From Comamonadaceae bacterium (lineage in GTDB: Bacteria > Pseudomonadota > Gammaproteobacteria > Burkholderiales > Burkholderiaceae_C): a DNA stretch of 64,000 nucleotides. Below the pieces are notes generated by a model that worked only from the letters and a program-made list of their open reading frames with translations, ran no database searches and was not told the DNA's origin. The position numbers and the translations under genes are program-made. Of this stretch, positions 6,971-64,000 are shown in pieces (position 1 is the stretch's first letter; each line of letters begins with the position of its first letter). The stretch spans positions 1 to 64,000 of the forward strand of contig JAIXOX010000093.1 in the NCBI GenBank assembly GCA_027486555.1. The letters run 5' to 3'.

Positions 6971-6978
6971 TGCCCAGG

Positions 6979-11405: not shown

Positions 11406-11419
11406 CGTCTTGCCCCGGC

Positions 11420-13504: not shown

Positions 13505-13516
13505 GCCCATGCCTGC

Positions 13517-13536: not shown

Positions 13537-13564
13537 TGAGTTGGGTTAAAGTTCTGCATCCCTG

Positions 13565-13590
13565 AAAACCCGGGCTTGGTCCCGGGTTTT
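13565..13590 (+). terminator. Perfect 10-bp terminator hairpin between lpdA and zapE
   Basis: AAAACCCGGG and CCCGGGTTTT flank a six-base CTTGGT loop. The second arm ends in four T. Because A and T tracts lie on both sides it could act in either direction, but both neighbours point right. Confidence 0.8.
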
Positions 13591-13616
13591 GTCATTTGAA
13601 TTGAAGAGCAAGCCCC

Positions 13617-45534: not shown

Positions 45535-46230
45535 TTAAGAAACCTCTATGGGTGCGGTAAATGCGTACCCGAGTTTATGCACCGTCTCGATGGGCAGTTC
45601 AAAACCCAGATGCTGTTTGATTTTGTTGCGCATGCGACGCACCAGAATTTCCATTCGGCGGAAATCATAGGTTTCGGGATCCAGGCCCAGGCTGGTGACC
45701 AGATCACGGCGATGTACTGCTTGCCCTGGCGTCAAGGCCAAGCGTGCCAGCAGTACCGTTTCGGAGTGCGTCAACTTGACTTCAATGCCTTGGGGGGTCT
45801 CCAGGATCCAGAGCAGTTTGCGCAGTGTCCAGCTCCTGCTGGACTTGGTGCTGAGTCGGCGCACAAGGTTTGTGGCCAGCGATGACAACTCGGCCAGTTG
45901 GATGGGTTTGACCAGGTAAACATCTGCACCTGCACGAATGCCATCAATTCGCTGCCCAGCACTGCCCCGGGCTGTGGTGATGATGATTCCCATATCCGAG
46001 ATGCTGACTTGATCATTCAGCCACTTGAGGCCATCCCCATCGGGCAGGCCCAAGTCCAGTACCAGCAAATCACAGTGGTAAGTTTTTATCCAATCTTTTG
46101 CCGCACTCAAACTGCCCAAACCGAATGCCTGAAAGCCTTCCATGTTGAGATAGTCCACCGTGGCATCACGCAAGTCGATTTCGTCTTCAATCACTAGGAT
46201 TCGAGCTGGAGGACGGCTTAACGTTGTCAT
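45535..46230 (-). CDS. Response regulator, OmpR-like DNA-binding
   Basis: 231 residues. The receiver domain has acidic pocket E15-D16, phospho-acceptor D59 in LLVLDLGLPDGDG and K108 in VYLVKPIQ. The effector is a winged helix (about 140-225: LTHSETVLLARLALTPGQAV, ILVRRMRNKIKQHLG). ATG 46230 is chosen. It follows the kinase gene directly, so the two form a two-component system, transcribed away from the secretion operon. Confidence 0.92.
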   Translation of the reverse strand: MTTLSRPPARILVIEDEIDLRDATVDYLNMEGFQAFGLGSLSAAKDWIKTYHCDLLVLDLGLPDGDGLKWLNDQVSISDMGIIITTARGSAGQRIDGIRAGADVYLVKPIQLAELSSLATNLVRRLSTKSSRSWTLRKLLWILETPQGIEVKLTHSETVLLARLALTPGQAVHRRDLVTSLGLDPETYDFRRMEILVRRMRNKIKQHLGFELPIETVHKLGYAFTAPIEVS

Positions 46231-46244
46231 ATAGGTGCGGACGA

Positions 46245-48245: not shown

Positions 48246-48579
48246 GCAGCGAGATTGGAGCTTTTGGCAATGATCCATCTGTAATCATTAGGAAGTATTT
48301 TTAACAAAAATGTCGGATTTTGTCTTTTTTTGTCGTTTTTGGCATCTGTTGTTTTTGAATTTCATAGATTACTATTTATTTGGCTATTTCAGGAGAAAAA
48401 AGTTCCTCCATTTTTAATTATTCAGTTTGGTAGGTCACAAAGAGCCGCCGGTAATTGTGAAAAGGGGGACTGGCCTTCGTCAAGCGCAAGCTTGGCAACA
48501 AGGGAGTTTGATGGGCTGTGCACCAGTCTCATCCGAGTTCATAAACATCAATTGTCTACATCAGAAATGGATCTGCGTC
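48246..48579. promoter_or_regulatory. Divergent AT-rich regulatory region
   Basis: 334 bases without a gene, between the sensor kinase and the SapC-type gene. The middle (about 48295-48425) is much richer in A and T than the surroundings and contains repeated TGTC/T-tract units. I could not place -10/-35 elements with confidence. The right part (48430-48579) is open in the SapC frame but is not family-like, so I read it as leader. Confidence 0.6.
48311..48340 (+). promoter_or_regulatory. Three TGTC direct repeats, 10-base spacing
   Basis: TGTCGGATTT, TGTCTTTTTT and TGTCGTTTTT follow each other without gaps; a weaker TGTTGTTTTT starts at 48347. Direct repeats one helical turn apart are the usual binding pattern of OmpR/PhoB-type regulators, and one is encoded next door. 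Confidence 0.55.
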
Positions 48580-49338
48580 ATGTTTGAGCAAGTCGTACCC
48601 GTTAACAAAGAGCGCCACGCTGGCAAAAAAGTCAGGATGAGCAATGACTTCGGTTTTGCCTCCAAATTTCACATCGCCTACATCACTCTTCACGAGTTCG
48701 CGCGTGCTGCTTCGATTTATCCCGTCATGTTTCTGGAAGATCAGGCCAATGATCAATTTCGTCCAGTGGTCCTGATGGGCTTGGATGCTGGTGAAAACCT
48801 GTTCGTTGATGCACAGGGTCAGTGGTCTGCTTCTTACATTCCCGCCATCATTCGCCGTTATCCTTTTGCGCTGACCAAAGCACCCGAGGCCGACCGTTAC
48901 ATCGTCTGTGTCGACGAAGGCAGTAACTTGCTGAGCGATACCGAAGGTGCGCCCATGTTCGACGAGCAAGGTAACCCCACCCAAGTGATCGAAAACGTCA
49001 AACGTTATTTGGGCGAACTGCAACAGATGGATCAAATGACGCACGAGTTCAGCAAGTTTCTGGTTCAAAACAACCTCTTAACGCCGCTGAACATGCGTGT
49101 CAACGCGGCTGACCAAGTCCGAAACATCACAGGCTGCTACGTCATCAACGAGGAACGCCTGAACAACTTCTCGGATCAGAAATTCCAGGAAGTGCGTCAA
49201 AAGGGCTATTTGCCGGCCATTTATGCCCACCTGATTTCCCTGTCGCAAATTGAACGCCTTGCGGCATTGAAAAAGCCTGCTGTCCCATCGCAAGACACGG
49301 GTGCAGCTTATCCACTGTCTTCCGAACAGCTTCAGTGA
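48580..49338 (+). CDS. SapC family protein
   Basis: 252 residues from the ATG at 48580. IYPVMFLEDQANDQFRPVVL, LMGLDAGENLFVDAQGQW and SASYIPAIIRRYPFAL are the core of the SapC family, named from Campylobacter S-layer secretion genes but of uncertain function. No signal peptide or membrane helix is visible, so it is probably cytosolic. It leads the presumed secretion operon; its stop overlaps the longer possible start of the tolC-like gene. Confidence 0.9.
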   Translation: MFEQVVPVNKERHAGKKVRMSNDFGFASKFHIAYITLHEFARAASIYPVMFLEDQANDQFRPVVLMGLDAGENLFVDAQGQWSASYIPAIIRRYPFALTKAPEADRYIVCVDEGSNLLSDTEGAPMFDEQGNPTQVIENVKRYLGELQQMDQMTHEFSKFLVQNNLLTPLNMRVNAADQVRNITGCYVINEERLNNFSDQKFQEVRQKGYLPAIYAHLISLSQIERLAALKKPAVPSQDTGAAYPLSSEQLQ

Positions 49339-49451
49339 TGAAGTCTCAGGGGCATGACGTGATACGCATCACTCATGCACCTGATGGTTGGGGTGTCGGC
49401 TCTTGCTTAAGCACGGGGCTGCTTGTGTGCCATCTGATCTTCAGGACTTGC

Positions 49452-51011
49452 ATGAAAAATTCTGATAACTCTTTTCGTCTTCTTGTACCCGCTGCTCTGA
49501 TTTTGTCAATGGGGCTGGTGCACCACAGCTCAGGTTGGGCGCAATCTGTCAGCACGGCTGAGCGTGACACTGCTGCAGCGGTACAGCAGCAGCAAGCTCT
49601 GAGTCTGAAAGAATTGGTGGAACAGGTGCGCGTGAACAACAAGGCGATCCGCTCCAAGCAAGCCGAAAGTCGGATTACTGCCACCGGTGTCGAGCGCGCT
49701 GCTGGTGCTTTTCAGCGCACAGCCAACATCAACACCACGCGTGGCATGAGTTCGACCAAAAACACATTCGAGGAAGAACTGGTCCGGCAAGGGCAAGGCG
49801 TCTACGAGCGAACTGCCAATGACTACACCGCCGGCATCTCTCAATTGCTGCCCTCGGGCGGCAAGTTGGAGGTGAAATCCTCGCTTTCGCGGTTCATCAC
49901 CAACATCAACAACCAGACCACACCCCGTCCGCCTGGCTTGCTGGATAACCGCAGTCAGTTTGGCTTGACCTTGACACAGCCATTGGCACGGGATGCAGGC
50001 AGGGAGGTGACCGGTGCACGTCTGAACGTGGCCAAGCTTGATGCATCTGCTGCCGAGCTCACTGCACGCGACACCGAAACCAGCGTTGTGGCAGAAGCGA
50101 CCATTTATTACCACGAACTGACCTTCGCTCAGTACCGGGTGCACGCTGCGCAAGAACGGATTCGAAACGCCCAACGTTTGCTCCAGGAAGCCCAGGCCAT
50201 GAAACGGGGTGGACGTCTGCCGGATACCGACGTTTGGGAAGTCGAGAACGCGCTTGGACGTTACCAAGCGGGATTGCGCGAAGCGCTTCAACAAGAGCGT
50301 GAAAAAACCAACCGGCTGCGCACCATGCTCATGTCAGTCGCCAGCAATGAGCCCCGAAGTTTGCGCACTACGGACGCTTTGCCTGAAGTCGGCATGGACC
50401 CTATCACGCAGGAAGACAGCCTGCGCACGGCGCTTGAGCGTCGAGACGACTACTTGATGAAAAAAGTTCAGATTGAGCGCGAGGGCGTGCAAGTTGCCTA
50501 TTCCAAAAACCAGATGCTTCCGCGGGTGGATTTGGTCACAGGCTATGGCGTGGGCGCACTGGAGTATTCGGCTCGCAAGGCTTTGACCGCCTCCAACGCG
50601 GTGGATTACCCCACTTGGTCGGTCGGGCTTCAGTTGTCGTTCCCCATGGGTCCCAATCGCCAGGCCCGGGCTGACGTTGAAGCGGCCGTGGTCAGGCGCG
50701 AAGACGCCCTGCTGGCCCTAGAGGCTCTTCAAGTTCAAATTGCCAATGACATCGACACCAGCCTGTCCATGCTCCGGTCATCTGCAGAGAACTGGCAGCT
50801 TTGGAAAGAGGTGCATGAGCGTGAGAAAAAACAATTGGAAGCTGAGCGCCGAAAGTTCAGCGGCGGTCGCAGCGATACCCGAGAAGTGCTTTTGCGTGAA
50901 GAGCGGGTGATCAATTCGCTGCTGAGCGTGCGCGAGCAACAACTGGCACACGCACGCGCCCAAGTCATGTTGCAGTCAGCCCAGGGCACCTTGATGGATC
51001 GATTCCGCTGA
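49452..51011 (+). CDS. TolC-family outer-membrane channel protein
   Basis: 519 residues from ATG 49452, which gives a signal peptide of about 30 residues (LLVPAALILSMGLVHHSSGW). The mature part has the two outer-membrane efflux repeats: SLKELVEQVRVNNKAIRSKQ and the long helical hairpin AAQERIRNAQRLLQEAQAMK in the first, LSFPMGPNRQARADVEAAVV in the second. Such trimers form the outer-membrane exit duct of type I secretion and efflux pumps. An open frame to 49335 overlaps the sapC stop. It is followed by its likely adaptor. Confidence 0.9.
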   Translation: MKNSDNSFRLLVPAALILSMGLVHHSSGWAQSVSTAERDTAAAVQQQQALSLKELVEQVRVNNKAIRSKQAESRITATGVERAAGAFQRTANINTTRGMSSTKNTFEEELVRQGQGVYERTANDYTAGISQLLPSGGKLEVKSSLSRFITNINNQTTPRPPGLLDNRSQFGLTLTQPLARDAGREVTGARLNVAKLDASAAELTARDTETSVVAEATIYYHELTFAQYRVHAAQERIRNAQRLLQEAQAMKRGGRLPDTDVWEVENALGRYQAGLREALQQEREKTNRLRTMLMSVASNEPRSLRTTDALPEVGMDPITQEDSLRTALERRDDYLMKKVQIEREGVQVAYSKNQMLPRVDLVTGYGVGALEYSARKALTASNAVDYPTWSVGLQLSFPMGPNRQARADVEAAVVRREDALLALEALQVQIANDIDTSLSMLRSSAENWQLWKEVHEREKKQLEAERRKFSGGRSDTREVLLREERVINSLLSVREQQLAHARAQVMLQSAQGTLMDRFR

Positions 51012-51042
51012 GACAGTTGTTGCAGAACTCAGGGAGATCTTT

Positions 51043-51936
51043 TTGACAGAAAAAATAGCAAAACAAACAAAATGTGGGCCGCTCATTGCGGTCCTTTGTC
51101 CGTATTTTGTCCTTCGTGTGGCCGCTGCTTGCTTGGCGACGACAGCTTGCCTGGCGCAACCCGCACCCACTTCGCGGTCCACCCCTCAAGGGGGGGTGTC
51201 AACTGTGCTGGCTCAGGGTCTTACCCAGGCCATCAAGGACATCAAGTTGGGCATGACTGTGGCCGGTCGTGTAGATGGGGTCTTGATTCGGGAGGGGCAA
51301 AGGGTGCAGCAAGGTCAGGTTTTGCTGTACCAAGACAAACAAGCCGAAGAACTCGAAGTCCAACGTCGTCGCTTGTTGTTGCAGGACAACTCCCGGTTGA
51401 ACGAGTTGCGCAACAAGGAAGTCGTGCTGACTGAGCAGGTGGGTTCATTGCGTTCCTTGCTTTCATCTGGTGCCGTTTCGCGCAAGCAGCTCGAAGATGA
51501 GGAGATGTCACTGAACGCGGTGGTGGCCGAGCGCAAAGCGCTTGAAATCGGCAAACAACGCGAGCAAGTGGAGCTCGAAATGGCCATAGAAGCTTTCGAG
51601 CGCCGCCACTTGCGATCACCCATCAATGGCATTGTCACCAAGGTGGTTCCACGTACCGGTGAAAGTATTGGAGCCCATGAGCCTGTTGTGCATGTGGTGG
51701 ACATCAGCAGGGTGCGCTTTATGGGCAACATTCCAGTGGCTCAGGGTGCACTGCTGCGCGTGGGTGCGCAAGTCAAGCTGCGCCTCGGGGGGGACCCGGG
51801 CATCACGCGCAATGCTCGTGTGATGTTTGTCTCTCCCATTGCCGATCCCGCCAGCGGGCTGGTCGAGGTCATCGCCGAATTTGACAATCCCGATGGTGCG
51901 GTTCGTCCTGGGGTCACAGGCCGCCTGGTGTTGTGA
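51043..51936 (+). CDS. Periplasmic adaptor (membrane fusion) protein, short
   Basis: 297 residues from a TTG with AGGGAG six bases upstream; no ATG in frame fits. A signal sequence (about 13-38, ending TACLAQP) precedes a barrel-sandwich half-motif VAGRVDGVLIREGQRVQQGQ, a helical hairpin (about 100-180) and the second lipoyl half RSPINGIVTKVVPRTGESIG, then a beta-barrel VVDISRVRFMGNIPVAQGAL. This is the RND/HlyD adaptor layout in compact form. It probably contacts the TolC-like protein encoded just upstream. Confidence 0.87.
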   Translation: MTEKIAKQTKCGPLIAVLCPYFVLRVAAACLATTACLAQPAPTSRSTPQGGVSTVLAQGLTQAIKDIKLGMTVAGRVDGVLIREGQRVQQGQVLLYQDKQAEELEVQRRRLLLQDNSRLNELRNKEVVLTEQVGSLRSLLSSGAVSRKQLEDEEMSLNAVVAERKALEIGKQREQVELEMAIEAFERRHLRSPINGIVTKVVPRTGESIGAHEPVVHVVDISRVRFMGNIPVAQGALLRVGAQVKLRLGGDPGITRNARVMFVSPIADPASGLVEVIAEFDNPDGAVRPGVTGRLVL

Positions 51937-53888
51937 AGCCGACCACCATGTCCGCTCCATCGAGTTTATCCCCCGATATCAGCAGCGAGTCAGCCAGTGC
52001 GCGTTTAGCCAGTTTGGTGCGTCTGGGCGGCACGGCCGAGCAATTTTGGCCGCACTATTTGCAAGCGGTGGCGCAGGCCCTGTCTGCTCGCCGAGTGCTG
52101 TTGCTGGTCTCTTCGGTTGGGCGACCTTGGCAGGCCCGGGCGCAATGGCCGGTGCGTGGCAACGACCAGCCGGGGGATGTCGATTGGACTTTGGCGTTGG
52201 TTGCTGAAGTGCGTAACGGGCAACCGCGACTGCGCCGCAATGCGGACAAGCAGCTTGCGCTGGTGATGACCCCCTTGGCCGATGCGACCGAATCCGGGGC
52301 GCAAGTGCTGGCCGTTGTCGCATTGGACATTGGCACCGAAACTTGGGACGAGTCCGGCTTGCTGGCTTGGGCAGCATTGGCCGAGTGGATTCCCTCACAG
52401 TGGTCGATGAACATGGCCCTGTCGGGACAGGCCCCACAAAGTGGTTCGTCCCCGGACGCCAGCCATGTCGCCAGTGGCGCAGTTTCTGCCATTGACCCCG
52501 CACAAGTGACGACTCAGAGTGCGCAGGATCGGGCTCAAACGCTTCATGACGTGATGCGCTTGGCCATACGTTTGCAGGAAGAAAAGCGTTTTTTGGCCAT
52601 GGCCATGGCCATGTGCAATGAATTGGCGCTGCGATTTGCCTGTGAGCGGGTTTCTTTGGGTTGGGTGGATCGCCACGATCTGAAGCTCACGGCGGTCAGC
52701 CACGTCGAACACTTTGACCCCAAGTCTCAGGCCACCCGCTCGCTTGAAGCGGTGATGGACGAGGCGCTGGCGCAGGAATCGGTGCTGGTTTACCCCCCCG
52801 AACCCGGCACGGACCCGGTGTTGCGAGCGCATCAAGCGTATTGTGAAAAAGTGGGGGCTACTTGCATCACCACCGTGCCCTTGTTGCATGCCGAGACGGT
52901 CATGGCTGTGCTTTGCCTGGAGCGCCAGGCAGGCACCCTGACGGCGGCGCAGTTGTGGGAGCTGCAGCTCATTGCCGATGCGGTGGCACGCTGGCAGCAC
53001 ACCTTGCATGACCAGGACCGTTGGTTCGGTGCACGGTGGTGGGCCGCATTGAACCGGCAGGCAGGACAAATTTTCAAGCCCAGTCACACCGCACTCAAAC
53101 TCACGGCCATCACCGTCACTGTCCTGTTGGCGCTGTTGTCTTTAACGTATTGGCCTTATCGGGTGGATGCGTCTTTGGCCATTCGCAGTCAAGACTTGCT
53201 GTTCATGCCTGCGCCTTTTGATGGATACCTGCGCAAGGTCAATGTGCACGTCGGTGAACAAGTGGCTGAGGGGGCAGTGCTGGTCGAATTGGACACACGC
53301 GACTTGGCTCTGGAGGCCTCCATGGCCGAGGCGGATTTGCTGCGTCACTCCCGTGATTCCGAAAAATCGATGGCCGCGCATCAACTGGCAGAAATGCAGA
53401 TCGCAGCGGCCAGGGCGCAGCAATCGGCTTCGCGTTTGGAGATGATTCGCTACCAGTTGGAGAACGCGCAGGTGCGGGCACCTTATGCCGGGGTGGTCAT
53501 TGAAGGTGATCTGAAAAAAAACCTGGGTGCTCCTGTTCGCAAAGGAGATCTGCTTCTGAAGTTGGCCCAAACCAGTCAGGCCTACATCGAGTTGGAAATT
53601 GACCAAGCCTACATCCATGACGTGAAAGTCGGCAGCCGTGCAGAGTTTGCGCTGGTGGGCCGTCCCCAAGACCGTTTCGACATCACGGTCAGTCGGATTG
53701 ATCCGGCCGCTGTCAACCGCGATGGCCGCACGTTTTATGTGGCCCGAGCCGATGTGGACGGCACCTTTGAGCCTCATTGGCGGCCCGGCATGGGGGGTAC
53801 TGCCAAAATTGACGTGGGACTTCGAAGCCCGCTGTGGATCATGACGCAGCGCACTGTGCGTTTTTTGCGTGAGTTCTTCTGGCTATGA
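51933..53888 (+). CDS. GAF domain-transmembrane-HlyD adaptor protein
   Basis: 651 residues from the GTG that overlaps the previous stop (ATG 51948 is an alternative). Residues about 25-155 and 205-350 look like GAF-type sensor modules (FACERVSLGWVDRHDLKLTA, GATCITTVPLLHAETVMAVL). A single transmembrane helix at about 388-406 leads to a HlyD-type periplasmic part (about 415-640) with APFDGYLRKVNVHVGEQVAE and APYAGVVIEGDLKKNLGAPV. A cytosolic sensor fused to an adaptor is unusual; it may gate export from the cytosolic side. Its stop overlaps the next start by four bases. Confidence 0.83.
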   Translation: MKPTTMSAPSSLSPDISSESASARLASLVRLGGTAEQFWPHYLQAVAQALSARRVLLLVSSVGRPWQARAQWPVRGNDQPGDVDWTLALVAEVRNGQPRLRRNADKQLALVMTPLADATESGAQVLAVVALDIGTETWDESGLLAWAALAEWIPSQWSMNMALSGQAPQSGSSPDASHVASGAVSAIDPAQVTTQSAQDRAQTLHDVMRLAIRLQEEKRFLAMAMAMCNELALRFACERVSLGWVDRHDLKLTAVSHVEHFDPKSQATRSLEAVMDEALAQESVLVYPPEPGTDPVLRAHQAYCEKVGATCITTVPLLHAETVMAVLCLERQAGTLTAAQLWELQLIADAVARWQHTLHDQDRWFGARWWAALNRQAGQIFKPSHTALKLTAITVTVLLALLSLTYWPYRVDASLAIRSQDLLFMPAPFDGYLRKVNVHVGEQVAEGAVLVELDTRDLALEASMAEADLLRHSRDSEKSMAAHQLAEMQIAAARAQQSASRLEMIRYQLENAQVRAPYAGVVIEGDLKKNLGAPVRKGDLLLKLAQTSQAYIELEIDQAYIHDVKVGSRAEFALVGRPQDRFDITVSRIDPAAVNRDGRTFYVARADVDGTFEPHWRPGMGGTAKIDVGLRSPLWIMTQRTVRFLREFFWL

Positions 53889-56053
53889 GTCTCGAAGAAG
53901 CCAGCGGCCGTACCTTCAGCGATGCATGGCACCGTGTGGCGGGCGTGCGCGCCCATTTGCGCACCAGTGTGATCGCGCATCGCCAAATTTTCCGGGGTGA
54001 GCCCTGGATGGTCTTGCGCGACAAGTTCAGTCACGAATGGTTCCGTGTCACGCCCGATGCCTGGACTTTTTTGTGCCGCTTGGGCGAGGGCACGACGGTG
54101 GATGAGGCCTGGAACCGTTCCTTGGAGTTTGATGCTGGCCGAGCCCTCACACAAGAAGAGGTGGTGCAGCTGATCGGTCAGTTGAACCTGTCTAATCTCT
54201 TGCACTTCGACCGTGCCGACTCGCAAGCCAGTCAATTCGAGCGCCATCAAAAACGCAAATCTCGCGAACTCAAAGCTATGCTGATGGGGTTTTTGTCGGT
54301 CAAGATCCCTCTGTTTGACCCGGACCGCCTGCTGGACAAGGCTTTGCCCTTGATCCGCGCCATCTGCAGCCGCTGGGGTCTGGCGCTTTACCTGCTGTTG
54401 CTTGTCATGGGCCTGAAGGCCGTGGTTGACGAGTCCGACCGCCTGTTTGACCAATCGTCCCATCTCTTGGTGCCAGGCAATCTGCCTTTGTTGTATGTGG
54501 GTTTTTTGTTGTCCAAGACGCTGCATGAATTCAGCCATGCCGCGGCCTGCAAGCTTTTTGGCGGCGAAGTGCACAAAGTCGGGGTCATGCTGCTGTTTTT
54601 TGCGCCCATACCGTACATGGATGCCACCTCAGCCTGGGGCTTTCGCAGCCGATTCGAAAGGGTGATGGTGGGCGCCTCTGGTGTCACGGCTGAATTGGCC
54701 ATGGCCGCTTGCGCAGCCCTGGTCTGGGCATCCACAGCGCCGGGCACCCTCAACTCTTTGGCTTACGACATCATGTTCGTGGCCAGCGTCTCTACCGCGG
54801 TTTTCAACCTCAACCCCTTGCTGCGCTTTGATGGATACCACATTCTGGTGGATGTGCTGGACGTGCCCAATTTGTTTCAGCGCTCGCGCGACCAATTGCG
54901 TTATCTGGCCGAGCGGTATGTGTTGCGCCTGCATGATGCGCAGCCCGCCGCACGCACACCCACCGAGGTGTTCATGTTGCCGCTTTATGGTGTGGTCAGC
55001 CTGCTGTATTGGGTCATGCTGATGGTGACCATTGTGATCTTCATTGCTGGTGAGTACCTGGATCTCGGGGTGGCCTTGGCGATCTTTCTGATCTTCACGT
55101 CGGCGGTCATGCCCCTGTACAAATATGTCAAATATTTGTACAGCGAGCCCCGCCTCGGTTACCGGCGGGGGCAGGCTGTAGCGATCTCCTCAGGACTGGC
55201 GCTTTTGACCTTGGGTCTGTTGACCTTGATCCCCTTGCCCGATCGCATTCGCGTGACCGGTGTGGTTGAAGCAGTGCAGTCGCGTCAATTGCACACCGAC
55301 ACCGACGGTTTTTTTGCTGAACTGCTGACCCGTCCCGGCAGCCAGGTCAGCGCCGGTCAGCCCTTGCTGCGCTTGCGCCACCCCGAACTTGAATTTGACA
55401 TTCGGGCTGCAGAAATGCAACGCGAGCAACTCGAGGCCCAGCGCATCCAGTCGGTCTCCAAAGCGTCAACCGACTTGGCCACCATCGAGCGCCAGCTCGT
55501 ATCGGTGCAGCAGAACCTGAGCGAGCTGTACCGCCGACGTGAAGCGCAGCTCATCGTGGCACCGATCGCTGGCGAGTGGAGTGCCAGTGACCTGGATGGT
55601 ATTCGTGGACAGTGGCTGGCGCGCGGTGCACCGGTGGGCACCATCGTGAACCCCGACCAGTGGCGTTTTGTGGCGGTCTTGCCCCAGGTTGGCAGCCATG
55701 TCTTGGGCGAATCGATCGAGGGCAGCGAGGTGCGCCTGCGGGGGCAAGAAGGTATCAACATCAGCGTGGCCGCCACGTCTGTGATGCCTTTTGAGCAAGG
55801 CCTGCTGCCATCGCGCGCGTTGGGCATGTCTGGTGGTGGTGACCTGGCTGTTTCACCGTCCGACCCCAACGGGGTGGTTGCTGCAGAACCTTTTTTTCGA
55901 ATTGAATCGCCTTTGAAGCCCGATGCAGACCATGCCCCTATGTTGGTGCATGGCCGCATTGGCGTCATGCGTTTGACCTTGAGCAGTCGTCCTTTGCTGG
56001 TTCAGTGGGAGCGGCGTTTGAGGCAATTTTTGCAGCGGAGGTTCAGGGTATGA
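53885..56053 (+). CDS. M50-type membrane peptidase fused to HlyD-like adaptor
   Basis: 722 residues. The N-terminus (about 35-115) resembles a PqqD-like domain (DKFSHEWFRVTPDAWTFLCR). Several transmembrane helices follow, with the zinc motif HEFSH at 214-218 and the third-ligand region NPLLRFDGYH at 310-319, as in site-2-type peptidases. After helices near 365-410 and 435-452, residues about 456-720 form a periplasmic lipoyl/coiled-coil adaptor (GFFAELLTRPGSQVSAGQPL). M50-adaptor fusions are known in peptide-export contexts, but not usually beside a SecA paralogue. The protein could process the cargo or act only as a membrane channel part. Confidence 0.85.
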   Translation: MSLEEASGRTFSDAWHRVAGVRAHLRTSVIAHRQIFRGEPWMVLRDKFSHEWFRVTPDAWTFLCRLGEGTTVDEAWNRSLEFDAGRALTQEEVVQLIGQLNLSNLLHFDRADSQASQFERHQKRKSRELKAMLMGFLSVKIPLFDPDRLLDKALPLIRAICSRWGLALYLLLLVMGLKAVVDESDRLFDQSSHLLVPGNLPLLYVGFLLSKTLHEFSHAAACKLFGGEVHKVGVMLLFFAPIPYMDATSAWGFRSRFERVMVGASGVTAELAMAACAALVWASTAPGTLNSLAYDIMFVASVSTAVFNLNPLLRFDGYHILVDVLDVPNLFQRSRDQLRYLAERYVLRLHDAQPAARTPTEVFMLPLYGVVSLLYWVMLMVTIVIFIAGEYLDLGVALAIFLIFTSAVMPLYKYVKYLYSEPRLGYRRGQAVAISSGLALLTLGLLTLIPLPDRIRVTGVVEAVQSRQLHTDTDGFFAELLTRPGSQVSAGQPLLRLRHPELEFDIRAAEMQREQLEAQRIQSVSKASTDLATIERQLVSVQQNLSELYRRREAQLIVAPIAGEWSASDLDGIRGQWLARGAPVGTIVNPDQWRFVAVLPQVGSHVLGESIEGSEVRLRGQEGINISVAATSVMPFEQGLLPSRALGMSGGGDLAVSPSDPNGVVAAEPFFRIESPLKPDADHAPMLVHGRIGVMRLTLSSRPLLVQWERRLRQFLQRRFRV

Positions 56054-58113
56054 ACACCATGTCAGACACCTCCGCCTGGTTGAATTTGGCACCCGCACCC
56101 ACACCCGCAGCTGTGCCTGCAACGGGACTCATCGGGCGTGCCCGTACCTTGGCCCCATTGACGCCGCTGCCACAAGGAGTGGACGCCCTTTACCAGACCC
56201 TGCAAGGCCACTGGATGCGTTGGCGCAACCCGCGATCGCAGTTGATGGCCCAGTCCAAGCGCACTGCGGCTGCCTTTGATACCCTGATGGGGTTGACCGA
56301 TGAGGAACTTCAGACGCGTTTGGAACAGGCGCGTGCCTGGATGCGGCTGGAGCCCCAACAGGCGGATGGGCATCTTGAAGAGGTGCTGGCGGTGGTGGGC
56401 CAATTGGCTTGGCGGCGTTTGGGGCTCAAACCCTATACGGTGCAATTCATGGGTGCCCTGGTGCTGCAAAGAGGACTGCTTGCCGAGATGGCGACGGGTG
56501 AGGGCAAAACCCTGACCGTGGGACTGGCTGCGGTGCTGGCGGGATTGACTGGCCGTCCCTGTCATGTGATCACTGCCAACGACTATCTGGCCGGTCGTGA
56601 CGCCGAAGAAATGGGCCCACTTTTTGCGGCCTGTGGCTTGCGAGTGACCTCTATGGCCGGGGATCTGGAGCCCGCCGAGCGCGCTTTGCGGTATGACGCT
56701 GATGTGGTTTACCTGACCGCCAAGGAATTGCTGGCGGATTACCTGCGCGACCAAATGGGTGAGGCTTCCCCAGCCATGGACGAGCAGCATTGCTTTGCGC
56801 AGTGGCTCAGGGGCGAAGCACCCCACGGTGCCAGCGCCTTGCTGGTGCGCGGCCTTCACACGGCCATCGTCGACGAAGCTGACAGCATCCTGATCGACGA
56901 AGCCGTCACGCCCTTGATCCTGGCGGCCCCTCGAGAGAGTCGAGGCTTGCAGGACGCGGTGCGGCTGATTTCCGATTTGGCCAATACCCTGCTGGAAGGC
57001 CCTGACTACGAGGCTCAGCCCAAGGGCCAATCGGTTACCTTGCTGGCGAGCGCCAAAGCGCAACTGACCGATTTGTCCAGTCAGTTGCCACCCCTTTGGC
57101 GACCCGCCCCCCGACGCGAAGAGTTGCTTCGGCAGGCCTTGGTGGTGCGCCACTTTTTTCATCCCGGCCAACACTTTGTGGTTCAGGACGACGAGGTGGT
57201 GCTGCTCGACGAGTTCACCGGTCGCATGACGCCTGGCCGCAGCTTGACAGCAGGTCTGCACCAGGCCATCGAGGCCAGTGAGGGGGTCACGATCACCGAC
57301 CCGAATCAGTCCCTCACGCAGATGAGTTTTCAAACCTTCTTTCGGCGTTTTCGCAAACTGTCCGGTTGCAGCGGCACCATCCGGGAAGCCGCTTCCGAGG
57401 TCTGGCGTGTTTATGGTTTGCAGGTTGTTCGGGTCCCGACCCATCGGCCGCGCCTGACCATTTACCACGCCCCGATCTTGGTGCCAGACCTCGTGCAGAA
57501 GTGGCACGCCATTGCCCAAGAGGTGGCCCAAGAGCTCTCCCGGGGGCGTCCCGTGCTGGTGGGCGTGCGCAGCGTGACGGCCAGTGAAGCGCTAGCTCGC
57601 GTGTTGCGTGCTCAGGGCATCGAGCCCAGGGTGCTGAATGCCTTGGCGCACGCTGAAGAAGCCGCCATCGTTTCAGGGGCTGGGCAGCGTGGCGTTGTCA
57701 CCATTGCCACCAACATGGCGGGCCGTGGTACGGACATTCGCTTGGGCCAAGGGGTCCCAGAGGCAGGCGGCTTGCATGTGATCGTGGCCGAAGTCAATGA
57801 ATCGGGTCGAATCGACCGGCAGCTGGCTGGGCGTTGTGGTCGGCAGGGTGATTTCGGCAGTGTCTCGACCTATTTGTGCTTGGCCGACGACCTGGCCCAA
57901 CGCATGATGCCCGCGCCCTGGCGTCAGTTGGTGCTGATGGTGATGCGCAGCTCCGCTGGCAAGACCTCTCGCTTGGCGGGTTGGGCTTTTGCCCGTGCCC
58001 AGCATCGTGCCGAAGCTGTGGCTTTCCAACGGCGTTGGTCGGTCTTGCGTTCGGACGACTGGATGAAGTCGGCCTTGCCCTTTGAAGGTCGCCAAAGGAG
58101 TCAGCGCTCATGA
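56050..58113 (+). CDS. SecA-like translocation ATPase, C-terminally shortened
   Basis: 687 residues against about 900 for housekeeping SecA. Present: Walker A MATGEGKT at 147-154, DEAD box VDEADSILIDEA at 274-285, a preprotein cross-linking region, DEFTGRMTPGR, FRKLSGCSGT, TNMAGRGTDI near 554 and GRIDRQLAGRCGRQGD near 585. The scaffold helix begins (FARAQHRAEAVAFQRR) but the wing domain, the rest of the scaffold and the zinc-binding tail are missing. It overlaps both neighbours by four bases. I infer a dedicated motor for the giant protein; it is not the housekeeping secA. Confidence 0.93.
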   Translation: MNTMSDTSAWLNLAPAPTPAAVPATGLIGRARTLAPLTPLPQGVDALYQTLQGHWMRWRNPRSQLMAQSKRTAAAFDTLMGLTDEELQTRLEQARAWMRLEPQQADGHLEEVLAVVGQLAWRRLGLKPYTVQFMGALVLQRGLLAEMATGEGKTLTVGLAAVLAGLTGRPCHVITANDYLAGRDAEEMGPLFAACGLRVTSMAGDLEPAERALRYDADVVYLTAKELLADYLRDQMGEASPAMDEQHCFAQWLRGEAPHGASALLVRGLHTAIVDEADSILIDEAVTPLILAAPRESRGLQDAVRLISDLANTLLEGPDYEAQPKGQSVTLLASAKAQLTDLSSQLPPLWRPAPRREELLRQALVVRHFFHPGQHFVVQDDEVVLLDEFTGRMTPGRSLTAGLHQAIEASEGVTITDPNQSLTQMSFQTFFRRFRKLSGCSGTIREAASEVWRVYGLQVVRVPTHRPRLTIYHAPILVPDLVQKWHAIAQEVAQELSRGRPVLVGVRSVTASEALARVLRAQGIEPRVLNALAHAEEAAIVSGAGQRGVVTIATNMAGRGTDIRLGQGVPEAGGLHVIVAEVNESGRIDRQLAGRCGRQGDFGSVSTYLCLADDLAQRMMPAPWRQLVLMVMRSSAGKTSRLAGWAFARAQHRAEAVAFQRRWSVLRSDDWMKSALPFEGRQRSQRS

Positions 58114-58970
58114 TGCGTGTTCCATCCTGGCCTTGGACGCTTGGCGAGCGCAGCGAAGCTTTGTCCAGCGCTCTGGCGCCTTGGCTTCGCCAGTTGCATC
58201 AAGCGCCAGATGTGGGGTATGAGCTTTCTTGTCGTTTTGGACCGGATGGCGCATGGCCTGACCGCGTGCTGCTGGCGCTCGATCCAGACCGGATGCGCAT
58301 CGATCCAACCTCACAAAGCTTGTCCGAATGGGGCATGCCCGATGGCTTGATGCGCACCTGGTTGGAAGACGCACAGCATGCGCAGCAATTTTTGATCGGC
58401 GCAGAAGCATCCCCTGACGGGGTAGACAACCGTGCCTATCTCGGGTTTGGACCTGCTGAACATCCCCTGCAACCTGGTTTGGCCATGCGCGGTTACAAGT
58501 GGCGCGAGGGCCGTCAGCGCGTGAGCGATTACTGGCGGATACCCGTGACTGCACAGCAATTGGCAAGCCAAGGGGCCATGCCGCGAGGCTTGCCCCGCCA
58601 AGCAGACGCTGTTTGGCGCATTTTGATGCAGGTCTTGCAAACGGCCCTGGTCCACGGACAAGGTCTGGAGCACATGGAATGTTGGGCCGTGACCGAAGCC
58701 GAGACGGCGCGTGGCTCGGTGTGCTTGCGCTTGTATGAAACAGGCTTGTGTGTGGCCGATGTGGCCCCCGCATTGAAGCGGCTGGCGAGCCTTTGGCCGT
58801 CGTGCGCGATCGGGTGCGACAGCACCTTGGACAACATGGGCCCCAGAGCCCTGGGTTGGTTGGCCGCCGGGATCGATGGCGCTGGCCTGCCTTTCATGAC
58901 CATTTATTGTGAAGCTGGGCGTCTCGATGTCCAGTCTCTGCTCGAAGTATCAGGAGTAGCTTATGCGTAA
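58110..58970 (+). CDS. Uncharacterised protein between SecA-like ATPase and giant protein
   Basis: 286 residues, no family recognised, no signal peptide and no obvious membrane helix. It is rich in Trp and Leu (PSWPWTLGERSEALSSALAP, SLSEWGMPDGLMRTWLEDAQ) with a hydrophobic C-terminal segment ALGWLAAGIDGAGLPFMTIY. It overlaps the SecA-like gene by four bases and the giant gene by eight, which suggests matched production with both. A cytosolic chaperone or targeting factor for the giant protein is a reasonable guess, nothing more. Confidence 0.75.
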   Translation: MMRVPSWPWTLGERSEALSSALAPWLRQLHQAPDVGYELSCRFGPDGAWPDRVLLALDPDRMRIDPTSQSLSEWGMPDGLMRTWLEDAQHAQQFLIGAEASPDGVDNRAYLGFGPAEHPLQPGLAMRGYKWREGRQRVSDYWRIPVTAQQLASQGAMPRGLPRQADAVWRILMQVLQTALVHGQGLEHMECWAVTEAETARGSVCLRLYETGLCVADVAPALKRLASLWPSCAIGCDSTLDNMGPRALGWLAAGIDGAGLPFMTIYCEAGRLDVQSLLEVSGVAYA

Positions 58971-61900
58971 TTTCAAGAATCAGACCTTTCGCTCCCCCCC
59001 GTTTGCCCTCAAAAAGAGCCGTGTGCAACTGGAAAAACTTGAAGAGCGCTTGCTCCTGTCGGCAGAGCCCTTGCTGCAAATGGGCAAGCCCGCTCAGGGC
59101 ACAGCGCTGGCCGTGGACAACGTCCTGCTGACGACCCGGGTGGGAGATGCCGTCAACAACCAGCAAGACCCGATGTTCGAGGTCAACTTGCAAAACGCCC
59201 AAGTCATTGACCTGAGCAAAGGGGTTGACCAGAACAGCACCTTGTTGTCTTGGGAAGTGCAGGGTGACCTGATGAAGCTCAACCAGGACCTGGGCAGCCT
59301 GGTGTTGGATCTGGGAGCCAATGACGATACCGTCAAAATTTCCCAGGATGAGCAAGGCCGAATCAAGGTCTCAAGCGATGGTCTGTACGACTTGGTGTTT
59401 GCCAAACCTTTGAATCTGCTGGCCATTCGGGGCGGTGCTGGTGTCGACAAAGTGCTGCTGGACACCTTCAGCATGGGCGGTGGACTGCGCGTGGAGTCTG
59501 AATTCATTGAATTGAGCAAAGACAAGACCGTGACGCTGGGCGGCGATGTCCTGCTTGAAGCGGTTTCCCGCATCACCGGCAATCCCACCACGGGCGATGC
59601 CCAAGGCACCGCCTCGACGCTGGTCGATGTGCAGGGCACCTTGGTGACCAAAGGGCTGGTGACTTTGTCGGCACGCTCATACGTGGATTACCAAACCGTC
59701 CGAAACGGTACTTCTGCCGACCTGAATTTCTCAGCCCAATCCGAAGCCCGCGCCCGTTTGGGCGAATCAGCCTCTCTGACCGCAGCAGGTCTTTCGGTGA
59801 CTGCACTCACGGAAATCAGCTTGGTGGCCGAACTGTCGGGCGTGACCGACGGCACCTTGGTGCTGGACGCCAAGCAGATCAGCGAAGCGGCTTTGCTGGG
59901 CAATGCCAGCGTGACGATTGACGCCAAAGCCGCCGATGACACCCCGCAGGTGCGGGTGGAAGCCAGCGGTTTGACGCAAATGAAAGGGGTGGTCAGCATG
60001 GCCACCCGTGATGCCGAAAACACCATCAACGCCAACACGGTCAAGGGGCAGATCAAGCTCGATCGCGCGGTCTGGGCACGCGTGGGCGATGGCTTGCAAG
60101 GCATCCAAGATGGCCAAGCCACTGACAACAAGGTCACGGTTGTTTCGGCCGATGGCCGACCTGCGCCTGCCTTGCAGGTCTCGGCCCTGACCGCAGACCG
60201 TGCGGGTGGCGGTATCCAGGCCGAGCTGCTCAGCTCACCTTATGGCGCGCAAAGCATTCAGGTGAGCAACCGGGTGGCAGCCGATGTGAACGGTGCCACC
60301 TTGAACCTGTCGCGTCTGGACGTGAGTGCGCTGGACAGCACCACCTTGAGCAACAAGGCCCGGCAAGCCATCAATACCGGCGTCGCCAGTACCAGCGTGC
60401 TGCTGCGCAACAGCACCGTTATTGCCAGCGGCAATGCCAGCTTGGTGGCCTTGGATGCCTCGTCGTGGACCGCTGAGGGCGGCGCTTATTCGGTCAATTT
60501 CACGGGGGGCGGCAACCTCGGGGCATCCCGTGCGGGCAACCAGGTGCGCTCGGACGTGTCGGCTTTGGTGGGTAATTCCAATGTGACCGCTGCGGACCTG
60601 CGCCTTTTTGCCAAGGGTGCCCAAACGCTCAAAGCGACCATTGCCCCCAATAAGCTCGATCCTGTGGACTCAGGTCAGTTGGATTACTGGGTTGACATGG
60701 CTGCGCAACGTGCCTGGAACCAAGTCAATGGCGGTGTTCGCATGGACATGAACGCCTCCACCGTGGCCTTGAGCGGTGGCATGGTTTCAGGTGCCTCTGC
60801 CCGTGCACGACTGAGTGCCAACACGCCAGCAGGTACCTTGCGTTCGGGTATCTTGAGCAACCAGGAAGAGTCCATGGCCCGCAACGTGGTGGGTTGGGAT
60901 GAAGGCGATGGCGGCACGCTGGACCTGTCCAAATTGGGTGGGGCGGAAGGCAATTTCAATGAGGCATCGGCTTATGAAATTTTTGCCACGGTGCGCGACA
61001 CCGAAGTCAATGCCGCCGCAGGCGTCACAGTGGATGCCCACAACCGACTTCAATTGGAGGCCCTCAACGGTGCGCTGAGCTTGCCCACAGGCGCGGGGGC
61101 GGCAGCCTTGGCCTTGCTCGAAGTGGGCGCAACCGCGCTGGTGGCCAGCAACCGGATGCGCACCGACACGCGTGCACAGGTCTCCGACAGTGAGCGCAAA
61201 AAGAAATTTGCCGCCGCTGGCGTTGTGAGCATTTCCGCTGTGGATGCGGTGTCTGTGGATGCATCGGTGGGCACCTTGGCCCGTGCCAAAACCAATGCCA
61301 GTGGCGTTTTGGTGCTCAACGATGTGCAGCACCATGCCCTGGCCCAGTTCAACCCGAGCGTGGCCAGCACAGGAGACCTCAAGATCGAGGCGCTGGACCA
61401 GTCGCAACTGAGCGCCCTGACTGCGGGCAAGTTGTTCGCGGGGGAAAGCCGCGTTTTCCAAAACAGCTGGAGTGCCTTGGCTGACGAAGGCGTGGTCACC
61501 ACCAATTGGCTCTCAGGCTCGGTCAAGGCCTGGCTTGGCAATGACAGTGGCGATGTCGGCGTTCAGCTCAAAACCACCGGCAACTTCTCGGTGCAAGCCA
61601 CGGGTGAGGCGACCCTCAAAGCTGGAAACCAGTTGGATTACCAAAATGCCAGGGGTGCAGGCTTGTCCTACAACCGCGTGGGCAGCTCGGGCATGTCCGG
61701 CGTCCTCAAGGGACAGTTGGACGATCTGCTCTATGCCAACAACCTGACGTCGGACCCTTTCATGGTCTCGGCCTTGGTGCGCAATGGCAGCTTGCTTGTC
61801 GATGGTGACATGCGTGTGCGTGCCGACCTCAAGATCAGCGCCACCAGCGTGGTTGGGCTGAGCTCTTCTGAGCTGGACAGCATCCTTGCGCAAAACGCCA

Positions 61901-64000
61901 GCTATGCCCGGGCCGATGCCCGCATCGTCATGCCCGCCAGCAGCACAGTCAACCATTTTGTGGGCGGTGTGTTGCAAGTGGGCGCAAGTGACAGCACCTT
62001 GGCGCTGTCCAAAGGCACGCTGAGCACCGGAGGGGCTTGGTCATCGGCTTTTCTGGGGGCTCGCAATGAAGTGAATCACCGTGCCGATGCCTTGCTCGAC
62101 AACCTGATCGTCACCACGGGCGGCGGCGTGCAGGTCTTGGCCAACACCACCCAAAGCCTCACCACCAACTTGTCCGGCAAGGTCAATGGTGTTTTGTTCA
62201 GTGCCGCAAATACCTTGACACTCAACGAGGTCAAGGGCGGCACCACTGCGCGCATCCAGGGTGGGCGACTGGAGACGGCGGGTGATTTGTCGGTGGTGGC
62301 CGACAACGCCAGCACCATCGATTCCGTGAACCTGGCATCGGTCGATGGTGCCGGTGCCGACAGCCATGTGATCGCAGCCAACGTGACAGGTTGGGACGGT
62401 TTGAATGCATCGCGTTCCACCTTGGCCTCCAGCAGCGGCTTCAAGAGTGCCCTTGGCGGCCAATGGACCGGCTCAGCAGGTGCGGCTTCTCCGCTGGAAA
62501 CCCTGGCTTCTGTCGTCAACACACCCTTGGTGGTTGGCGGCACAGCCCAAGTGAAGGCCCTCATGCGCGCGGCCCAGACCAGCCGGGTGAGTTCTGACAG
62601 CGATGGTTTTTTCGGAGGGGGCAGTCAGGTGCTGGCCATTCAACGTGCCAACACCCGCACACAGGCCTGGATCAGCCCATCGCCTGCAGCGACGCCGGTT
62701 GATGGCCGCAGTCTTTCGCTCAAGGTCAATGTCGGCGGTGATTTGCTGGTCGAAGCCAATGACAGTTCACGCATCCTGTCCAACGCCACCATGTCTTCTG
62801 CAGGCGGTATTGCTGCCGTGGGTGGGGCCACGGTGCAAAACCTGGTGTCACAACAAGTTCAGGCCACCTTGGACGATTTGGCCATCGCGGCCGGTGGCCA
62901 TTTCACGGTGCAGGCACTGAACAAGGCCGAAATCTCCTCTGAACTCAGTGGCATCGTCAGCCTATCGGTCAGTTTCGGCTTGGTGGGGTCCGTGCCCTTC
63001 ACCCGACTCTCGGCTGCCAACAACATCCTGGCGCAGGTCGGTGCCGACGTGCGCGACAGCGACGTCACCGCAGGCGGCGACTTCATGCTGCAAGCCAAAA
63101 ACAGCGCCAGCATTGTGGCCAACAACACCGCATTCAGCCGATCTTCAGGGGGCGGTGCCGCCTCCAGCGTGGTGGCCCGCAATGCCATCGGTTGGGACAC
63201 CCCGGCCCTGTGGACGCAGTCGGATGACGATCTCGACACGCTCAAGGACTCCAGCGAGTTGGGGGCGAATGCCTTCTCCAAGGTCTCTGGCAGCACACTC
63301 AAGGTCACCGGAGGGGCCCAGATCTTGGCGTTCATGTCGGCCAACGTGGATGCCTCGGTGGACAACTCCGCCACGGGTGGTGCCGGGGGCATCACGGTCG
63401 CCGGTGTGCGTGCCTATAACTTGGTCAGCAGCGCTTCCAAGGCCGATTTGATCGATGCCCGCTCCGATACCTTGGGTTTGATGGGCGTGGCCATGGTGGG
63501 CGGTCAATTGAAGCTCGAATCGAAGAACGAGCCCATGGTCACCTCGGACACCACGCTCAAGGCGGGCAGTGGTGGCACCGACACCGAGCGCATCAATGCC
63601 GACTACACCACCAGCGATGGTTTGAGGAAAGTGACCTTTGGCGACAGCGTCCGTCTGGATCCCCGTTACCGCAACGGGGGCGAAGGCGGCAAGGTTTACC
63701 GCTACATGGGCGGTGGATCCAAAATGCTGGACCTGAGCAAGGAAGACTACAGCAACGACGGTTACTGGCTGGAGGAATCGCCCTCGGCCTTCAAGTCCGG
63801 GGTACTGGGACAATTCGTTGGTATTTTTGAGCAATTGACAGAGGTTTTGCCCCTCAATCCCTTGAATTGGAAAGATGTTTACTTGTCTGGAAGGGGTTCC
63901 ACGGGTATCCAGGAAGTCCAACGGCTGACCCTCACACCCGGCATCGATGCCTTGAGCAGCATGCAACTGGCCCAAGGAGACAAAGTTTCAGAGCTCATCT
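58963..64000 (+). CDS. Giant LEPR-XLL-type repetitive exported protein (partial, 5' end)
   Basis: At least 1,679 residues, open to the end of the window. ATG 58963 has AGGAG six bases upstream. After a basic start (KNQTFRSPPFALKKSR) residues 26-37 read LEERLLLSAEPL, close to the LEPR-XLL signature placed at the N-terminus of very large bacterial proteins. No classical signal peptide follows. The rest is beta-type, rich in Ala, Val, Ser, Thr, Asn and Asp, with no cysteine that I could find in frame, and with related segments such as ARNVVGWD, AANVTGWD and ARNAIGWD. This fits an exported filament or adhesin. The C-terminal end and any calcium-binding repeats are not visible. Confidence 0.9.
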   Translation, partial: MRNFKNQTFRSPPFALKKSRVQLEKLEERLLLSAEPLLQMGKPAQGTALAVDNVLLTTRVGDAVNNQQDPMFEVNLQNAQVIDLSKGVDQNSTLLSWEVQGDLMKLNQDLGSLVLDLGANDDTVKISQDEQGRIKVSSDGLYDLVFAKPLNLLAIRGGAGVDKVLLDTFSMGGGLRVESEFIELSKDKTVTLGGDVLLEAVSRITGNPTTGDAQGTASTLVDVQGTLVTKGLVTLSARSYVDYQTVRNGTSADLNFSAQSEARARLGESASLTAAGLSVTALTEISLVAELSGVTDGTLVLDAKQISEAALLGNASVTIDAKAADDTPQVRVEASGLTQMKGVVSMATRDAENTINANTVKGQIKLDRAVWARVGDGLQGIQDGQATDNKVTVVSADGRPAPALQVSALTADRAGGGIQAELLSSPYGAQSIQVSNRVAADVNGATLNLSRLDVSALDSTTLSNKARQAINTGVASTSVLLRNSTVIASGNASLVALDASSWTAEGGAYSVNFTGGGNLGASRAGNQVRSDVSALVGNSNVTAADLRLFAKGAQTLKATIAPNKLDPVDSGQLDYWVDMAAQRAWNQVNGGVRMDMNASTVALSGGMVSGASARARLSANTPAGTLRSGILSNQEESMARNVVGWDEGDGGTLDLSKLGGAEGNFNEASAYEIFATVRDTEVNAAAGVTVDAHNRLQLEALNGALSLPTGAGAAALALLEVGATALVASNRMRTDTRAQVSDSERKKKFAAAGVVSISAVDAVSVDASVGTLARAKTNASGVLVLNDVQHHALAQFNPSVASTGDLKIEALDQSQLSALTAGKLFAGESRVFQNSWSALADEGVVTTNWLSGSVKAWLGNDSGDVGVQLKTTGNFSVQATGEATLKAGNQLDYQNARGAGLSYNRVGSSGMSGVLKGQLDDLLYANNLTSDPFMVSALVRNGSLLVDGDMRVRADLKISATSVVGLSSSELDSILAQNASYARADARIVMPASSTVNHFVGGVLQVGASDSTLALSKGTLSTGGAWSSAFLGARNEVNHRADALLDNLIVTTGGGVQVLANTTQSLTTNLSGKVNGVLFSAANTLTLNEVKGGTTARIQGGRLETAGDLSVVADNASTIDSVNLASVDGAGADSHVIAANVTGWDGLNASRSTLASSSGFKSALGGQWTGSAGAASPLETLASVVNTPLVVGGTAQVKALMRAAQTSRVSSDSDGFFGGGSQVLAIQRANTRTQAWISPSPAATPVDGRSLSLKVNVGGDLLVEANDSSRILSNATMSSAGGIAAVGGATVQNLVSQQVQATLDDLAIAAGGHFTVQALNKAEISSELSGIVSLSVSFGLVGSVPFTRLSAANNILAQVGADVRDSDVTAGGDFMLQAKNSASIVANNTAFSRSSGGGAASSVVARNAIGWDTPALWTQSDDDLDTLKDSSELGANAFSKVSGSTLKVTGGAQILAFMSANVDASVDNSATGGAGGITVAGVRAYNLVSSASKADLIDARSDTLGLMGVAMVGGQLKLESKNEPMVTSDTTLKAGSGGTDTERINADYTTSDGLRKVTFGDSVRLDPRYRNGGEGGKVYRYMGGGSKMLDLSKEDYSNDGYWLEESPSAFKSGVLGQFVGIFEQLTEVLPLNPLNWKDVYLSGRGSTGIQEVQRLTLTPGIDALSSMQLAQGDKVSELI

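Follow-up and report, generated by a model that had tools for sequence, protein, structure and literature searches.

Which machine, if any, carries the giant LEPR-XLL proteins, encoded by reading frames of 5,000 to 19,000 amino acids (aa) in genomes of several phyla, out of the cell? The question is raised by a locus in a Comamonadaceae bacterium (GenBank assembly GCA_027486555.1, contig JAIXOX010000093.1, positions 1 to 64,000), a stretch of 64,000 nucleotides that was analysed as a whole and is called the window hereafter. Eight co-directional genes, all with open frames, lead there from a SapC-family gene (48580) to the gene of a LEPR-XLL giant (58963 onward). Here, we show that this gene set and LEPR-XLL giants co-occur in genomes of two classes, and we put at about 0.6 the probability that the set is a trans-envelope exporter for these giants, with a type I-like plan and a different inner-membrane engine. 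A sequence-only reading of the window had proposed a hybrid secretion machine; an export-type set tied to LEPR-XLL giants by co-occurrence in both classes is the part of that proposal that stands, and export itself we infer.

The features on which the argument draws are given below. The start codons are our choice among possible ones, and RRE denotes the recognition element of ribosomally synthesised and post-translationally modified peptides (RiPPs).

48580..49338, + strand: SapC-family protein, accessory (252 aa; PF07277, E 4.1e-74)
49452..51011, + strand: TolC/OEP-type outer-membrane channel (519 aa from the chosen start; PF02321, E 5.7e-31)
51043..51936, + strand: periplasmic adaptor, HlyD/RND_mfp (TTG start; TIGR01730, 106.7 bits, cut-off 94.9)
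51933..53888, + strand: GAF-HlyD protein (PF01590, PF13437, PF16576; GAF match at aa 226-352)
53885..56053, + strand: M50-HlyD protein, with a predicted RRE-like domain, a helical membrane M50 part and an HlyD part (Peptidase_M50 and HlyD matches)
53948..54208, + strand: predicted PqqD/RRE-type domain at the N terminus of M50-HlyD (aa 22-108; fold and homologue profile matches)
56050..58113, + strand: short SecA-like ATPase (687 aa; PF07517, SecA_DEAD, E 1e-82; PF01043, preprotein cross-linking; PF21090, P-loop)
58110..58970, + strand: 286-aa protein without family (nothing in Pfam or NCBIfam at E up to 0.01)
58963..64000, + strand: start portion of the LEPR-XLL giant gene (14,730 aa overall; end outside the window)
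59026..59091, + strand: LEPR-XLL motif (NF012209, 27.9 bits, cut-off 17; about 20 aa from the start, behind a basic stretch)

The SapC and TolC genes are separated by 113 bases and the TolC and adaptor genes by 31; afterwards the genes overlap, by 4, 4, 4, 4 and 8 bases. Gene order, strand and the overlaps of 4-8 bases from the adaptor on, as the sequence-only reading had them, are confirmed by open frames and coordinates, and family searches agree with its gene names (TolC, adaptors, M50, SecA-like, LEPR-XLL). Pfam and NCBIfam scans found no ABC transporter among the genes of the set. The system had also been called undescribed, a claim that we reject, since the locus was published by Kamneva, Poudel and Ward in 2015 (PMC4452313). 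As far as the main text of that paper goes, a locus of SecA_DEAD, M50/HlyD, GAF/HlyD and HlyD genes occurs in five phyla, its horizontal transfer is inferred, and a role in secretion is suggested, in which SecA would supply the ATPase and M50 the inner-membrane component instead of an ABC transporter; the biological role is called unknown. Methylobacterium extorquens AM1 is, by the same paper, a carrier of GAF, M50, SecA and HlyD genes. The words 'giant', 'LEPR', 'PqqD' and 'SapC' do not occur in this main text, and no substrate is named there. In PMC5313232, published later under the same first author, the work is cited in passing, as far as the available text goes. By that main text the set is the same as ours: a secondary SecA_DEAD, M50 with HlyD, GAF with HlyD/biotin-lipoyl, a further HlyD and sometimes OEP. 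Both of its defining traits, a second SecA_DEAD protein and M50/HlyD and GAF/HlyD/biotin-lipoyl neighbours, are found in the window; the genome also has a 935-aa SecA frame on another contig, and by this and the clade given below the SecA-like protein of the set is a second, non-housekeeping one. The machine is already known as a locus, and the link to a cargo and the proposed recognition of its leader are the additions made here. In open-licence papers LEPR-XLL is mentioned in two, both taken up below, and we found neither an export route for LEPR-XLL giants nor a link between LEPR-XLL proteins and this locus.

The link to the cargo comes from co-occurrence. The class of the window (first class) comprises 369 genomes, 29 of which have matches to NF012209, at 39 places; 14 control genomes have none. 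Close relatives of M50-HlyD (E below 1e-120, the next match being at 4e-110) were found in 32 genomes, namely in 25 of the 29 with LEPR-XLL versus 7 of the 340 others (Fisher test, 1.8e-28). Counted by taxonomic family, the figures are 18/21 for families with LEPR-XLL versus 5/160 for the others (1.4e-17), and all 18 have both in one genome. Leaving out the window's genome gives 24/28 versus 7/340, a stricter threshold of 1e-150 gives 23/29 versus 7/340 and a looser one of 1e-30 gives 27/29 versus 29/340. SecA-like proteins (at least 669 bits, reaching model position 662 or later out of 665, frame of at most 837 aa) occur in 23 first-class genomes, all with a close M50-HlyD: 17/29 with LEPR-XLL versus 6/340 without, where at most three M50-HlyD and SecA-like candidates were scored per genome and single absences are not firm. 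The second class (103 genomes, at most ten or eleven candidates scored in each) is that of G385, a verrucomicrobial record (locus L062) and known carrier of the module, around which the sample was centred. M50-HlyD was found there in 9 of 11 LEPR-XLL genomes versus 1 of 92 others and SecA-like in 9 of 11 versus 2 of 92; without G385 both come to 8/10.

Six of the seven first-class genomes with a close M50-HlyD and no LEPR-XLL match were examined, G094 being left out as fragments. Among the six genomes with a SecA-like protein and no LEPR-XLL match, four have an open reading frame (ORF) near the module that opens with a weak motif (8.3-16.5 bits; E 0.08-0.0002); the remaining two show no such ORF start, and in one of them the contig ends inside a cysteine-free ORF. 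Searched from the side of the module, 41 of 48 module-bearing named genomes have LEPR-XLL, in a search that covered 50 of the 80 loci described next. A functional tie between the gene set and the giants is, in our view, very probable.

The set is also conserved as a unit. With nine aligned M50-HlyD proteins as the query, a scan that took a single genome from each species yielded at least 583 confirmed relatives among the 593 candidates listed, and the best-scoring 80 were kept, from records labelled proteobacteria, Verrucomicrobia, Phycisphaerae, Nitrospira and Desulfo-type bacteria. Within these 80, M50-HlyD is directly preceded by a GAF-HlyD gene at 70 of the 73 loci whose flanks suffice and directly followed by a SecA-like gene at 66 of 72. 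At the 33 loci with ample flanks we found homologues of the adaptor (MFP, 30), the SecA-like protein (31), TolC (21) and SapC (12); SapC is an accessory part, present in a fraction of related loci. Clustering the remaining ORFs of the loci brought up giants, sensor kinases and a small DUF3467 protein, and no further universal partner.

The predicted structure of M50-HlyD suggests how a cargo might be recognised. The model of this protein (78 sequences; mean predicted local distance difference test score, pLDDT, 91.8) has a small domain at residues 22-108, a helical part at about 147-448 and then the HlyD part. Motifs of the HExxH and NPxxxxDG types in membrane helices mark M50 (site-2) proteases; here HEFSH stands at 214 and NPLLRFDG at 310, and H214, E215, H218, N310, P311 and D316, the presumed zinc site, are invariant in the 78 sequences. 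The loop before the last hydrophobic stretch carries eight lysines or arginines, which would fit an inside loop with the HlyD part outside. A fold search with the whole model gave HlyD adaptors throughout the 50 matches listed, and the N-terminal domain was therefore folded alone (pLDDT 88.8). PqqD and RiPP recognition elements are built of three strands followed by three helices, and both models give the small domain this order. Scanned singly, 60 of 77 homologous domains matched Pfam PqqD at E up to 1 (best 2.3e-9). The domain profile found PqqD (E 0.013), PqqC/D (0.44) and TfuB1 (0.61) as its top three among PDB sequences, and the top three folds were TfuB1 and TbiB1, solved with leader peptide (probability 0.98-1.00, E 0.044-0.053). 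M50-HlyD is predicted, from these models and profiles, to open with a PqqD/RRE-like domain, and we think that this domain probably reads a leader on the giant. Cleavage of the leader by M50 is possible, with the odds rather against it.

One might read the same features differently, as leader-guided, RiPP-like modification or proteolysis: RRE and M50 would have the N terminus as their target, and what passes through HlyD and TolC would be a smaller product, for example the leader after cleavage. The RRE-like fold and the invariant catalytic residues suit this idea, as does the match of the M50 part to the daptide protease model NF041824 (195.3 bits, below the cut-off of 300; aa 25-409). So does the presence of a tryptophan-halogenase domain in single open frames with homologues of the 286-aa protein, in two Methylobacterium/Methylorubrum records (L115:3895-6783 and L116:3204-5771). 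Yet, Pfam and NCBIfam scans found no modifying enzyme among ten window proteins, and a conserved SecA-like ATPase together with an outer-membrane channel would fit the export of a long chain better. We consider this reading improbable.

LEPR-XLL proteins carry near their N terminus a short motif that could serve as the leader. In 48 of them (score 17 or more, starts set by a simple rule, row L014 mis-anchored) the motif begins at a median of 15 residues from the start codon, and in many a run of basic residues precedes it. Hydropathy over the first 60 aa, read in windows of 13 residues, peaks at a median of 1.3, and by this measure the N terminus of the window giant has no strongly hydrophobic stretch. 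A hidden Markov model of the motif was made from 35 rows, the window and 34 of 38 fetched places (L018, L035, L039 and L042 fell off the LE.R pattern). In the family scan of the window proteins, LEPR-8K (NF012209) matched with 22.2 bits against the cut-off of 17. The window giant ends at contig position 103155, contains one cysteine and nowhere has 15 hydrophobic residues in a row, and the next large frame past it lies on the opposite strand. The part of the giant within the window has LktA_tand_53-type repeats. Between this part and the late part, 6,666 aa were scanned with Pfam and gave nothing. The late part has a weak VPS10-like match and, near aa 12,200 of the 14,730, a single short RTX stretch, and Pfam matched nothing in its last 1,384 aa. 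LEPR-XLL frames reach 18,012 aa in module-bearing named genomes and 19,216 aa in the second class. In the relevant part of a Lake Baikal study, a Limnohabitans LEPR-XLL protein tops one sample by number of unique transcripts.

A role in moving the chain is conceivable for the SecA-like ATPase. At the positions of its motor motifs TGEGKT, DEAD and GRGTDI, 64 sequences agree fully or to at least 90%. It aligns to residues 37-606 of a 778-residue SecA in PDB (7xha), leaving unmatched the C-terminal part, which we take as the site of the helical wing and two-helix finger; the median length of the 64 proteins is 665 aa. In a tree built without SecA2, the 64 SecA-like sequences, drawn from several phyla, group together as a clade that leaves the 11 housekeeping SecA outside (support 0.988). 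We lean slightly towards a role as the motor that feeds the chain.

If a leader is read by M50-HlyD, changes in the one might go with changes in the other. A more distant M50-HlyD group occurs in 24 first-class genomes, with LEPR-XLL in 2 of the 24. Among genomes without a close M50-HlyD this group is found in 2 of 4 with LEPR-XLL versus 22 of 333 (p 0.027); the figure for the second class is 1/9 (p 0.65). From 21 genomes we fetched 22 loci of the group, counting G303 with the close group and leaving out G004, G056, G153 and G330. By Pfam, L160 has OEP, GAF-HlyD, M50-HlyD and a DUF4347 giant, and most other loci of the group show HlyD-type neighbours by profile. A variant motif was found in the first 150 residues of 7 of the 126 ORFs of at least 400 aa at 24 loci (shuffles 0.003, control regions 0/42), with a pattern that was written after most of the counted cases had been seen; without L161 and L162, whose M50 is 'close', the count is 7/116 at 22 loci. 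The large ORFs with the variant motif beside a distant M50-HlyD are:

L160, positions 2-7375
L176, positions 11164-17238
one each at L168, L178, L184, L185 and L166

Six of the seven motifs are of a D type (LExR..FDG, FDA, LDG or LDA) and one is LETRLLYSA; D-type motifs are likewise present in G224 and G319, the two genomes of the distant group with LEPR-XLL. Between the close and distant groups, the N-terminal domains are related (hhalign probability 97.7). Two receptor groups and two motif tendencies are what leader recognition would predict. Both variant-motif ORFs that were Pfam-scanned (L160 and L176) hold a DUF4347 domain, which is also found in the LEPR-XLL protein of L031, and at L177 (7002-8720) a divergent, shorter SecA-like protein (573-aa frame) adjoins the distant-group M50-HlyD gene.

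Taken together, these elements could work as follows. The short N-terminal motif of the giant would be a leader, to which the RRE-type domain of M50-HlyD would bind in the cytosol. Where present, the SecA-like ATPase would take hold of the chain, unfolded and with almost no cysteine, and feed it. The inner-membrane platform would consist of M50-HlyD and GAF-HlyD, with the adaptor and TolC joined to their HlyD parts as a single conduit. Cutting off the leader is a possible task of the M50 site, and gating or sensing one of the GAF part. What we infer here is the binding, the path of the chain, the sequence of steps and the cleavage. A wider claim, that this is a secretion class of its own, is put forward tentatively: an RRE on M50-HlyD would read a leader that is LExR..LSAD-like or LExR..FDGA/LDAA-like according to subfamily, a one-step HlyD/TolC conduit would pass chains of up to about 19,000 aa, and a finger-less SecA would be optional.

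Several observations weigh against an exporter of this kind. A close M50-HlyD or SecA-like gene lies within 10 kb of the giant frame at only 13 of the 39 LEPR-XLL places. The sequence-only reading had made much depend on partner genes standing beside most LEPR-XLL genes; taken literally this fails, but the partners usually exist, since they are present somewhere in the genome in 25 of 29 cases. Low adjacency is in part a matter of contig breakage, some LEPR-XLL places lying on short contigs, and in part real, because some genomes have several LEPR-XLL genes and fewer modules (two and one in G107, five and two in G240). Four LEPR-XLL genomes are without a close M50-HlyD (G076, G213, G224 and G319). 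No SecA-like protein was found in 12 of the 29, eight of which have a close M50-HlyD (G052, G177, G190, G206, G284, G290, G350 and G366, the last with a second, unlisted SecA match). Another motor or the housekeeping SecA would have to serve there; the SecA-like protein thus looks optional, and we rejected it as a constant partner of LEPR-XLL. The cut-offs for a 'close' M50-HlyD (1e-120) and for SecA-like proteins were chosen after the tables were seen. As to the RRE, E-values are modest (0.04-0.05 by fold, with none below 0.001, and 0.013 by sequence profile), ranks 4, 6 and 8 of the ten best folds are the non-RRE oxygenase NO66, the window's own domain gave no match to Pfam PqqD, and only 1 of 15 in the distant group did.

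Genes of ordinary type I secretion systems are also more frequent in genomes with LEPR-XLL. The giants might leave by such a system, with its ABC transporter encoded elsewhere, and the M50, GAF and SecA set might process, anchor or release them. Matches to LssB at 1e-100 are enriched (19/29 LEPR-XLL genomes versus 124/340, p 0.002). The window's genome has three LssB-type genes over the cut-off, which could export the giant, and the giant has its short RTX stretch. Moreover, as far as the relevant part of a Vibrio genome paper goes (PMC10868602), a LEPR-XLL giant of about 8,000 aa carries C-terminal RTX and serralysin domains, as an ordinary type I substrate would. However, LssB is over the cut-off in only 9 of the 29 LEPR-XLL genomes (53/340 in the others, p 0.037), against 25 of 29 for M50-HlyD. 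Hence, type I genes are enriched too, far less than M50-HlyD, and we rejected LssB-type secretion as the sole route. The gene set also brings its own adaptor and channel, and inspection by eye of the C-terminal 110 residues in the window giant and in 11 large ORFs linked to the module revealed no shared end, of RTX type or other. This explanation is unlikely. A short acidic-aromatic tail (e.g. FEYWTEDVVL) does recur in 5 of the 11, in large ORFs that end before the module (L058, L063, L072, L073 and L107), and is missing from the window giant.

Least probable is a co-occurrence born of shared lifestyle or joint horizontal transfer rather than of a tie between machine and cargo, for although both are patchily distributed and the main text of PMC4452313 infers transfer of the locus, the two are adjacent at those 13 of 39 places and overlap within the window's operon, a weak motif stands near the module in four genomes scored LEPR-negative, and the distant M50-HlyD group is much more weakly associated with LEPR-XLL (2/24 genomes; 1/9 in the second class).

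An exporter of LEPR-XLL giants would resemble several known systems in part. With type I secretion (HlyB-HlyD-TolC) the set shares HlyD-type adaptors and a TolC-type channel beside large, cysteine-poor proteins; it differs by its M50 membrane protein and SecA-like ATPase and by having no ABC transporter. Type I secretion relies on a C-terminal signal, whereas the one presumed here is N-terminal. Like accessory Sec (SecA2), the set pairs an additional SecA that carries motor motifs with a neighbouring large protein, presumably of the surface, but its SecA-like protein scores far below the SecA2 cut-offs and its cargo has no clear hydrophobic signal core. The likeness to RiPP recognition elements (PqqD, TfuB1, TbiB1) is one of fold and profile; the domain is here fused to a membrane protease-adaptor, and the presumed leader sits on a giant. 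The match to the daptide M50 protease (NF041824) spans the N-terminal domain and the M50 part, but is below the cut-off and in a protein fused to HlyD. If our reading holds, the export of some of the largest bacterial proteins would be explained by a dedicated machine with a readable leader, leader recognition of the RiPP type would be linked to protein secretion, and the second Gram-negative SecA, left open in 2015, would have a role.

Some further features of the locus and its relatives deserve mention. The adaptor has a hydrophobic stretch near its N terminus (14-32) that resembles a signal peptide. In GAF-HlyD, hydropathy gives a likely membrane helix at about aa 387-405 with the HlyD part behind it, and a second stretch, 311-329, inside the GAF match. 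The 286-aa protein has a homologue of 35% identity in L047, placed between the SecA-like and LEPR-XLL genes, and weaker homologues near the module in L115, L116 and L123; the one in L123 (4033-5301) shares its frame with a DUF3467 domain. A small protein recurs near the module in seven loci (L093, at 1480-1869, L104, L105, L106, L109, L115 and L116), and the one that was scanned is DUF3467.

Upstream of the SapC gene, on the opposite strand (window 45535-48278), lie genes for a response regulator and a 7TMR-DISM sensor kinase, a possible regulator pair of the operon. Among the best 80, the closest relative of the window M50-HlyD (76%) is in L046 (CALPVM020000010.1), a metagenome-assembled genome labelled Akkermansia muciniphila, and the next closest are in Comamonadaceae and Rubrivivax records; the L046 contig may be misbinned. 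At L041 (2124-5249), a PAS-GGDEF-EAL protein is encoded between the adaptor and the LEPR-XLL gene.

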